Assembly: GCF_021184045.1 (NCBI RefSeq)
Contig: NZ_CP073710.1
Coordinates: 2,428,685-2,492,684, forward strand
Reading direction: 5' to 3'
Length of the DNA stretch: 64,000 bases
Source of the DNA: Methanococcoides orientis
Lineage (GTDB): Archaea > Halobacteriota > Methanosarcinia > Methanosarcinales > Methanosarcinaceae
Each line of letters opens with the position of its first letter. Position 1 is the first letter of the stretch. Made by a program: the position numbers and the translations under genes. A model generated the notes under the pieces. The model did not search any database. It worked only from the letters and a program-made list of their open reading frames with translations, and was not told the DNA's origin. Positions 39,954 to 42,368 of the stretch are shown in pieces.

Positions 39954-40385
39954 TTACTGTTCACATCCGCAACGTACGTCCACTGCAGCGCCGGTATCAA
40001 GTGCTTCAACCTCATCGGGTGAAAGCATGAGCTGTCCGGTAGCAATGGCCCTGTCGTTCTCATCTACAATGATTACCTCATCGCCGCTTCGAAGACCGGG
40101 GTCTATGGATGTCACATGTTTTGCGAATGTGGTCTTTCCTTTTGAAACAAAAGGTACTGCATCATCGCATACTGTCACTCTAAGGCCAGGTGCAGGAACG
40201 TGTGCGTGGATCGCTGTGGCCGCGTCCATGCTAAGTGTGAGCATTCCATCCCTTGCTCTTGCTGTTGCGATACGCTTGCCATCGATCATGATCTGCCTGA
40301 TACGTTTTGTCCTTGAGAGCTGGAAGGTCACGTCATCAGAAAAAAGAATATCTCCACATCCCTTGCCGAACTGGTAGTCAGCCAT
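39954..40385 (-). CDS. PUA-domain protein (ArcTGT C-terminal-like)
   Basis: A 143-residue RNA-binding protein. The C-terminal half (about residues 65-140, AKHVTSIDPGLRSGDEVIIV to ATGQLMLSPDE) is a PUA domain; the N-terminal half (DYQFGKGCGDILFSDD) resembles the region preceding PUA in archaeosine tRNA-guanine transglycosylase. It could be the detached C-terminal part of a split ArcTGT or a general tRNA-binding accessory protein. ATG 40385 is chosen because AAGGT lies upstream and earlier ATGs add unrelated sequence. Two adjacent cysteines end the protein (RCGCEQ). Confidence 0.82.
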   Translation of the reverse strand: MADYQFGKGCGDILFSDDVTFQLSRTKRIRQIMIDGKRIATARARDGMLTLSMDAATAIHAHVPAPGLRVTVCDDAVPFVSKGKTTFAKHVTSIDPGLRSGDEVIIVDENDRAIATGQLMLSPDEVEALDTGAAVDVRCGCEQ

Positions 40386-40846
40386 AATACGAACCTTTTT
40401 GATCATCTTCGCCTTTTTATCCATGGGCGCAAGATTAATGATAGAACTTAAAATGGTTGACGGTCGGATATTGGAAAAATACATTGCAATTAATTCGTCA
40501 TAACCTCTTTTATATTTAAACGATATCGAACATCTTTAAATATTATTATCTCTATCTATTATTTGAGGAAGCGGACAGATTGCTTGCAAACTTTTGTGTT
40601 GTAAATGACTGTAATCAAGCAAACCATTCATCCCCTCAAACGAAGCCGTTTCCTCACTCTCTTGTAGTTTTTTTAATGTTGTTCAACTGCTATGATCATT
40701 TCTGAATATCTTTCAATCGATCATGTCTTAACTCTACTGGTTATTTCTTAATTCTACTGATCATCTTTTCACATCAGACAACTCTAAGCAAAGCTATATC
40801 GTTCTAGTATCCTGCCAGATCAGTTCTTATGATATATTCTGTCCGA
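40386..40846. other. intergenic region between a PUA gene and rtcB
   Basis: Contains the candidate small RNA (40562-40674) and its promoter. The rest, 40675-40846, is AT-rich with no ORF or repeat that I can support; it separates the RNA from the convergent rtcB 3' end. 40386-40500 presumably holds the promoter for the PUA gene. Confidence 0.5.
40562..40674 (+). ncRNA. candidate small structured RNA
   Basis: No ORF on this strand. The 11-bp outer stem 40564-40574 / 40646-40656 pairs fully (one G-U), and an inner 7-bp stem TTGCTTG / CAAGCAA (40580-40586 / 40616-40622) is perfect. A TATA-like TTTAAATATTA (40535-40545) lies about 25 bases before the 5' end, and seven T residues (40668-40674) follow the stem. 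The 5' segment TTTGAGG can instead pair with CCTCAAA (40634-40640). Size about 105-110 nt. I cannot assign it to a known family; it lacks clear C/D or H/ACA boxes. Confidence 0.55.
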
Positions 40847-42307
40847 TCAGCCTTTAACAACACCAAGGGGCATCATTCTGGCAACCTTTCTTGCGATGCC
40901 AAGATCATGCACAACATTGACAACATCACTGCTGGACTTGTAAACTCCAGGTGCTTCCTCCGCGATCACGGATGGATGTGCAGCCCTTACCATGATCCCG
41001 CTTTTTTCAAGATCGCTCTTGATGTCTTCGCCGTGGAACTCCTTCTTTGCATGTGCACGGCTCATTACCCTGCCCGCTCCGTGGCATGCGCTTCCGAAAG
41101 AGATGTCCATTGAAGCTTCTGCTCCATGAAGTACGAACGAAGCTGTTCCCATGCTTCCAGGTATCAATACCGGCTGGCCCACATCGCGGTATGCCTGTGG
41201 AACGTCCTTATGTCCTGGGGGGAATGCTCTTGTAGCTCCTTTCCTGTGGACGTAGACATTCTTTTTCTTACCGTCCACGGTATGCTCTTCCAGTTTTGCT
41301 ACATTGTGTGCAACGTCATAGACCAGATCGAGCCCAAGCTCGTCGATGTCAGACCTGAAAACATCTGAAATGATCTCTCTGGTCCAGTGGGTGATTATCT
41401 GCCTGTTGTTCCATGCATAGTTGGCAGCACATATCATGGACCTGAAGTAGTTCTGTGCTTCATCGGACTGTGCCGGAGCACATGCAAGCTGTTTGTCAGG
41501 AAGTGCTATCTTGTACTTCTTTGAAGCCTGTGAGATGGTACGCAGGTGATCGGTACAGATCTGGTGACCAGTGCCTCTTGAACCACAGTGGATCATGAAT
41601 GATACCTGTCCTTCTTCCAGACCAAAGTTATCAGCAACTTCCTGATCGTATATCTTATCGACATACTGCACTTCAAGGAAGTGGTTGCCGCTGCCTAATG
41701 TTCCTGCCTGTGGCCGTCCCCTCTTGCGTGCCTTGGTGCTTATGTGGCTTACATCTCCGCCTTCTATGCATCCGCCACCTTCACAGTGTTCAAGGTCTGC
41801 CTTCTCACCGTAACCGTTCTCAACTGCCCAGCGGGAGCCATGCAGGAAAATATCATCCAGTTCGCTATCAGATGCCCTCAGTCGGCTTTTGGAACCTACG
41901 CCCGCAGGTACTGACTGGAATAGTTTCTCAGTAAGTTCTTTCATTACCGGACGGACATCTTCAACAGTGAGGTTGGACCTGACAAGGCGTACTCCGCAGT
42001 TGATGTCAAAACCCACGCCTCCCGGGCTGATAACCCCCTCTTCCTCATCAAAGGCGGCAACGCCTCCTATGGGAAACCCGTATCCAAGGTGTGCATCAGG
42101 CATCGCCATGGAGTATTTCTGTATTCCGGGGAGCATTGCCACGTTTGCGACCTGGTCGAGTGCTTCCGGTTCAAGGTTGTGGATAAGTTTGTCTGAGAGA
42201 TATATCCTTCCCGGGACGTTCATTCCTGGTTTCGATCCGATCGGGATCTCCCATATATTATCGTCTATCCTTTTGAGTGATTCCTTTATGCTGCCTGCAT
42301 CTTCCAT
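40847..42307 (-). CDS. rtcB: RNA-splicing ligase RtcB
   Basis: GTP- and Mn-dependent ligase joining tRNA exon ends with 2',3'-cyclic phosphate to 5'-OH. Seen: metal-site Cys in GVGFDINCGVRLV, IHCGSRGTGHQ, the conserved histidines in YVHRKGATRAFPPGH, GSMGTASFVLHG, and the guanylylated His in SFGSACHGAGRVMSR. I start at ATG 42307 because GGGAGG is 7 bases upstream; GTG 42322 would include that site in the protein. 486 aa. The archease gene lies directly upstream, its known activator. Confidence 0.96.
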   Translation of the reverse strand: MEDAGSIKESLKRIDDNIWEIPIGSKPGMNVPGRIYLSDKLIHNLEPEALDQVANVAMLPGIQKYSMAMPDAHLGYGFPIGGVAAFDEEEGVISPGGVGFDINCGVRLVRSNLTVEDVRPVMKELTEKLFQSVPAGVGSKSRLRASDSELDDIFLHGSRWAVENGYGEKADLEHCEGGGCIEGGDVSHISTKARKRGRPQAGTLGSGNHFLEVQYVDKIYDQEVADNFGLEEGQVSFMIHCGSRGTGHQICTDHLRTISQASKKYKIALPDKQLACAPAQSDEAQNYFRSMICAANYAWNNRQIITHWTREIISDVFRSDIDELGLDLVYDVAHNVAKLEEHTVDGKKKNVYVHRKGATRAFPPGHKDVPQAYRDVGQPVLIPGSMGTASFVLHGAEASMDISFGSACHGAGRVMSRAHAKKEFHGEDIKSDLEKSGIMVRAAHPSVIAEEAPGVYKSSSDVVNVVHDLGIARKVARMMPLGVVKG

Positions 42308-42368
42308 GCGTGTCCCTCCCACTGTGATCTATAATTATTATGTTTCCTTGTATGATCCTGTGATCTGA

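Follow-up and report, generated by a model that had tools for sequence, protein, structure and literature searches.

To our knowledge, very few archaeal intergenic sRNAs with known targets have been described, and the methanogen sRNAs that were compared by name (sRNA154, sRNA162 and sRNA41) come from Methanosarcina. In Methanosarcina mazei, sRNA162 (Jager 2012, PMC3510493) is an intergenic RNA of 191 nt that has stem-loops and pairs with mRNA through a single-stranded linker. It masks the RBS directly, its target is the mRNA of an ArsR-type (winged-helix) regulator, and homologues were reported only in Methanosarcina (PMC3510493). sRNA154 of M. mazei, a trans-encoded RNA of ∼130 nt with conserved structure, is nitrogen-regulated, conserved in Methanosarcina, and acts through an anti-RBS loop on several targets including the mRNA of the regulator nrpA (PMC3177094, PMC5867862, PMC11549558). 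Its promoter carries the NrpR operator GGTA-N6-TACC (PMC3177094). In Methanolobus psychrophilus R15, 195 intergenic sRNAs are reported from dRNA-seq (PMC5378194).

Here we describe an sRNA gene in a 2.49-Mb Methanococcoides genome, at positions 40535-40674 of the window (the whole stretch of 64,000 nucleotides that was analysed). Judged from sequence, it is, with a probability of about 0.77, a trans-acting antisense sRNA that would invade two hairpins in the leader of a winged-helix regulator gene and control, probably repress, translation of the regulator. Like sRNA162, it is intergenic, with stem-loops and a single-stranded linker predicted to pair with an mRNA for a winged-helix protein. 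Unlike sRNA162, it was not found in the searched Methanosarcina genomes, and its two predicted pairing sites are hairpins that precede the RBS. It shares with sRNA154 the trans-encoded nature and the conserved structure. Nevertheless, it is not sRNA154, because the NrpR operator was not seen when its promoter region was read and because of its absence from the Methanosarcina genomes searched. The sRNA is probably present in M. psychrophilus R15 and may be among the unnamed sRNAs of the published list, although the main text describes neither this RNA nor its target (PMC5378194). A first-pass annotation of the locus had listed a TATA-like box, an 11-bp terminal stem, a 7-bp inner stem and a run of seven T, and on re-reading the sequence all of them were found at the positions claimed. 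The parts of the locus are as follows.

40528-40542, forward strand: putative sRNA promoter, a purine-rich BRE-like stretch upstream of box A TTTAAATA (40535-40542), from the TATA spacing in homologues and the alignments
40562-40674, forward strand: body of the sRNA gene, a conserved unit without a conserved ORF, detected by covariance model in the family and in f4 (a second family of the order)
40565-40574, forward strand: 5′ strand of the terminal stem, GAGGAAGCGG, which covaries and is replaced in f4
40646-40655, forward strand: 3′ strand of the terminal stem, CCGTTTCCTC, which covaries likewise
40580-40586, forward strand: 5′ strand of the inner stem, TTGCTTG, largely invariant (one pair changed on both sides) and absent from some g9 sequences
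40616-40622, forward strand: 3′ strand of the inner stem, CAAGCAA, from the covariance alignment, its final three bases shared with the antisense core
40620-40638, forward strand: antisense core CAAACCATTCATCCCCTCA of 19 nt, complementary to target leader sites 1 and 2 and mostly single-stranded in the predicted fold
40668-40674, forward strand: T7 run, a possible oligo-T terminator
39954-40484, reverse strand: TGT_C2/PUA-domain protein gene, the divergent neighbour (Pfam PF14810 and PF01472)
40847-42322, reverse strand: rtcB RNA ligase gene, the convergent neighbour (Pfam PF01139)

The sRNA gene lies in the 362-nt gap between the TGT_C2/PUA-domain gene and the 3′ end of rtcB. Transcription is predicted to start at about 40562 and to end at about 40656-40674. 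The terminal stem consisted of GAGGAAGCGG and CCGTTTCCTC plus one T-A pair, giving 11 bp including one G-U pair, and the inner stem of TTGCTTG with CAAGCAA (7 bp). The folding energy was ordinary (z of −1.27), and 19 of 200 shuffles were equally good. Because the following gene is the convergent rtcB, the RNA is not an mRNA leader, and the earlier remark that no ORF follows it was correct. Rfam 15 contained no family above the gathering cut-off, and permissive E-values gave two chance-level matches (E of ∼5), in agreement with the failure of the first-pass annotation to recognise a family.

A covariance model built on 34 distinct sequences detected the sRNA in 65 of 112 genomes of the family, distributed over eight genera. 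A blastn-type search recovered the unit from each of the 11 genomes of the genus, and the segment from GCTTGCAAAC to CATCCCCTCAAA was invariant in every aligned copy within it; among the named genomes, only that of Methanococcoides vulcani matched the 5′ part of the sRNA exactly. No covariance-model match, and so no homologue of the kind known for sRNA154, sRNA162 and sRNA41, was obtained in genus g13 (taken as Methanosarcina) under strict filters that could miss weak matches. A TTTAWATA-type box started 30-33 nt ahead of the terminal stem in 65/65 copies. In the 34 sequences, 5 of the 12 pairs of the terminal stem were changed on both sides and 94% of cells were standard pairs, so the check by covariation in related genomes that had been suggested did reveal compensatory changes. 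An identical core, a terminal stem that covaries across genera and a constant TATA spacing place the locus beyond chance, and thus bear out the proposal of a small RNA gene that is new, independent and equipped with a promoter of its own. The accompanying proposal of an own terminator was borne out only in part: the T7 run is present in the window, but a run of at least five T within 60 nt 3′ of the stem was found in only 33 of the 65 copies. By a loose motif test, 57 of the 65 loci had an rtcB-like CDS downstream on the opposite strand, with contig ends cutting several of the others.

The matches of the model in f4 were weak but recurrent, with a TATA-like box upstream. The f4 terminal stem (GGAATTCGGG/CCCGAATTCC) was rebuilt from standard pairs with a wholly different sequence, while the core (CCATCCATCCCCTCAAA) was retained. 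At least two f4 genomes had two sRNA loci with the same core (L169 and L173 versus L164-L168 and L172). A covariance match in f3 (L171) was discarded, as neither the stem nor the core agreed.

Two further observations concern the RNA itself. The stretch ACTGTAAYCAAGC (window 40608-40620), which precedes the antisense core, was nearly as invariant as the core, for which the known target gives no explanation; it is possible that it serves as a second pairing site or as a protein site. In genus g8 (L157 at ∼533-600 on the forward strand, and L158 on the reverse strand), a second hairpin RNA was observed directly after the stop of a coding frame, with AAGGTTGG and CCAACCTT around CCATTCATCCCCTCAGA, followed by TTCTTTTTTTT. 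Its antisense core was the same and its structure unrelated.

The invariant part of the sRNA was an antisense core, CCATTCATCCCCTC, with the complement TGAGGGGATGAATGG. TGAGGGGATGAATGG was virtually confined to the 5′ leader of a single winged-helix regulator gene, in which two hairpins in tandem carry it. In the genus search, a 19-nt opposite-strand match TGAGGGGATGAATGGTTTG recurred across the genus, 50-70 nt upstream of the start codon of a gene for a 284-aa protein, and a second copy was located 33 nt further on. The two sites are as follows.

G000:C1:60241-60259: leader site 1, perfect complement of the 19-nt core CAAACCATTCATCCCCTCA
G000:C1:60274-60288: leader site 2, 15 nt complementary to the core, including one G-U pair

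The target is ∼85 kb from the sRNA if the chromosome is circular. A search of the 112 genomes for TGAGGGGATGAATGG with at most one mismatch yielded ∼3 matches per sRNA-bearing genome, corresponding to the sRNA and the two leader sites; the reversed control pattern yielded 0-1 matches, and TGAGGGGATGAATGG gave nearly none in Methanosarcina. The leader position of the sites was identical in all target genes, and the two sites were 31-38 nt apart throughout the family. Each site was a hairpin ATCT-GAGG-GGAT with a variable outer stem. The GAGG motif, which is the Shine-Dalgarno core in these archaea (16S 3′ tail), lay inside the hairpin loop at 40 of the 41 first-family sites tested (mean z of −2.7). 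With other stems, the hairpin element recurred in f4 and at site 2 of f3. The own RBS of the target, GAGGC...ATG, was conserved just 3′ of site 2 and outside the sRNA pairing. Masking of the RBS of the main ORF was rejected, as this RBS is downstream of both sites. A reading of the sites as uORFs, each with a Shine-Dalgarno sequence and ATG, was also rejected, because frames and stops varied by species and left no conserved peptide.

In the encoded protein, a Gln/Pro-rich linker joins a short N-terminal domain to a C-terminal winged helix. PF03965 (penicillinase-repressor family) matched weakly in 20 of 20 aligned members, the member shown scoring less than the curated cut-off, and fold comparison gave the DNA-binding domains of Fur, BlaI and RosR with weak scores. 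The protein is probably a transcription regulator. Across the order the winged helix was conserved, with g13 and the genera next to it as exceptions. The gene is flanked by uvrB and by a divergent AAA ATPase gene, the product of which we read from its sequence as being of the proteasome-activating type.

The sRNA and the target gene occurred together. Both were listed in 63 of the 112 genomes and neither in 45, and either one was found alone in two genomes each; these four discordant genomes were only 60-83% complete. The co-occurrence was clumped in the phylogeny and may stem from a small number of losses. Co-variation of the two partners was also observed. The f4 core has C where that of the first family has U, and the f4 sRNA (CCATCCATCCCCTC) and the f4 leader (GAGGGGATGGATGG) formed a perfect Watson-Crick match. 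In one species (G071), the sRNA had CCGTTC and leader site 2 GAACGG, while site 1 retained a G-U pair. In g10 and g11, where site 1 had a mismatch (GATAAATGG or GATATATGG), site 2 was a full match in nearly all cases. The calculated interaction energy of the sRNA and the target was −15.7 kcal/mol, a value that shuffled sRNAs also reach (mean −11.6, sd 3.6), so that energetics alone fail to single out the pair. The argument for pairing comes instead from conservation, uniqueness and co-variation, from which we infer that the sRNA and the leader pair in the cell. In four close relatives, the 5′ end of the sRNA also matched a DEAD-box helicase gene, within its coding sequence; this match looked like chance.

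The RNA was thus found to be a discrete noncoding unit with its own promoter, away from its target, with a complementarity that is conserved and co-varying, and on these grounds it is filed with the trans-acting antisense sRNAs, the layout of its target being unusual. The mechanism that we propose starts from a trans-encoded sRNA of ∼95-110 nt, in which the terminal stem and the inner hairpin would hold the core CCATTCATCCCCTC mostly single-stranded. Pairing of the core would begin at the GAGG loops, and the core would then invade the 3′ arms to form duplexes of 14-19 bp at one site or at both. This would keep ribosomes from docking at the upstream GAGG loops and lower regulator translation, an outcome that we regard as likelier than its opposite. 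Because the RBS is downstream of site 2 and uncovered, the sRNA would act through ribosome standby or the stability of the mRNA and not by masking the RBS directly. In bacteria, the anti-standby sRNA IstR-1 reportedly acts on tisB in this manner, antisense at an upstream ribosome-docking site instead of the RBS. The sequences of such RNAs are unrelated to the present one, which differs in being archaeal and in having two tandem sites with Shine-Dalgarno-like loops. Since the sRNA is conserved across genera and antisense to two repeated hairpins before one regulator gene, it probably serves as a switch dedicated to that gene. More tentatively, and with the balance somewhat against it, it might represent the founding member of a family of archaeal sRNAs whose single dedicated target is shared by more than one family of the order, invading tandem GAGG-loop standby hairpins and with an antisense core independently re-invented, as in the g8 second hairpin RNA after a coding frame and the two loci in f4.

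Repression does not follow automatically, because the sites avoid the main RBS. A serious rival, although on present analysis we consider it rather unlikely, is that the same pairing would activate: by opening hairpins that trap the 30S subunit on decoy Shine-Dalgarno loops or leave a nuclease site exposed, the sRNA would stabilise the mRNA or raise translation. This would agree with the position of the main RBS outside the duplexes and with the finding that sRNA154 of M. mazei stabilises its targets, the nifH and nrpA mRNAs (PMC5867862). It would also agree with the conservation of the leader hairpins past the range of the sRNA: the GAGGGGA element was present in f5 and f3 leaders, while a search for an antisense partner found none in the f5 genomes and turned up none in f3, where the search patterns were poorly chosen. 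The persistence of the element there suggests that it may predate the sRNA or have a role independent of it. But a Shine-Dalgarno-like sequence in an accessible loop would suit a standby site blocked by an antisense RNA as well. In the f5 leaders (L188-L194), the orthologous gene had CATCGGAGGGGAATCCGGATG or a closely similar sequence at the corresponding position, with no antisense partner found. In two other leaders (L092 and L093, of G029 and G028), hairpin 2 had lost its GAGGGG loop and was a tight GAATCCACC-TTCT-GGTGGATT, leaving one sRNA site.

It was also considered that the core might be a general anti-Shine-Dalgarno RNA binding many RBSs, for example that of ftsZ. UCAUCCCCUC is known to resemble the 16S 3′ tail, GAGGGGATGAA, complementary to the core, was found at the ftsZ starts of the sRNA-bearing genomes checked (L203-L207, L212-L220), and the RBS-like GAGGGGATG also occurred at ftsZ starts. 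Yet the ftsZ starts of Methanosarcina and g5, located by translated frames, fit a similar GAGGGGAT(T)GAA in genomes without the sRNA. The ftsZ match is thus explained by its likeness to an RBS, and ftsZ was rejected as a second target. As the extended, doubled and co-varying match was confined to the winged-helix leader, we regard a general function as quite improbable.

Slightly less credit still can be given to a switching RNA, the fold proposed by the first-pass annotation, in which the 5′ strand TTTGAGG (40562-40568) would alternate between CCTCAAA (40634-40640) and the distal CCGTTTCCTC. Both pairings are contained in the window sequence, and the GAGG/CCTC complementarity was kept in nearly all first-family homologues. 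However, only this half of the alternative pairing was kept, and the pairing as a whole showed no covariation (0.018, compared with 0.022 in shuffles) and was formed in 82% of cells, no better than in shuffles, while the terminal stem covaries. Moreover, the f4 5′ strand GGAATTCGGG is unable to pair in this way with the core CCCCTCAAA. The invariance of CCTCAAA is accounted for by its being part of the antisense core complementary to the two distant leader sites. Two exclusive conserved pairings, as in a riboswitch, were therefore not found among the homologues, nor is the RNA the leader of a downstream gene, given the convergent rtcB. A guide RNA (C/D or H/ACA) or other housekeeping RNA would likewise be archaeal and strongly conserved, with a hairpin and a single-stranded antisense segment, but it is scarcely credible here, as no Rfam family was reached at gathering level, no C/D or ACA arrangement was seen by eye and the antisense element matches an mRNA leader.

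For the trans-acting antisense sRNA, the pair described here supplies a predicted target, exact sites and compensatory changes that can be used in mutants. Methanosarcina would be a natural clean host, since the sRNA and the target gene both appear to be absent from it. Control by an archaeal sRNA upstream of the RBS would become directly testable, and the pair points to an uncharacterised winged-helix regulator that is conserved over much of the order.
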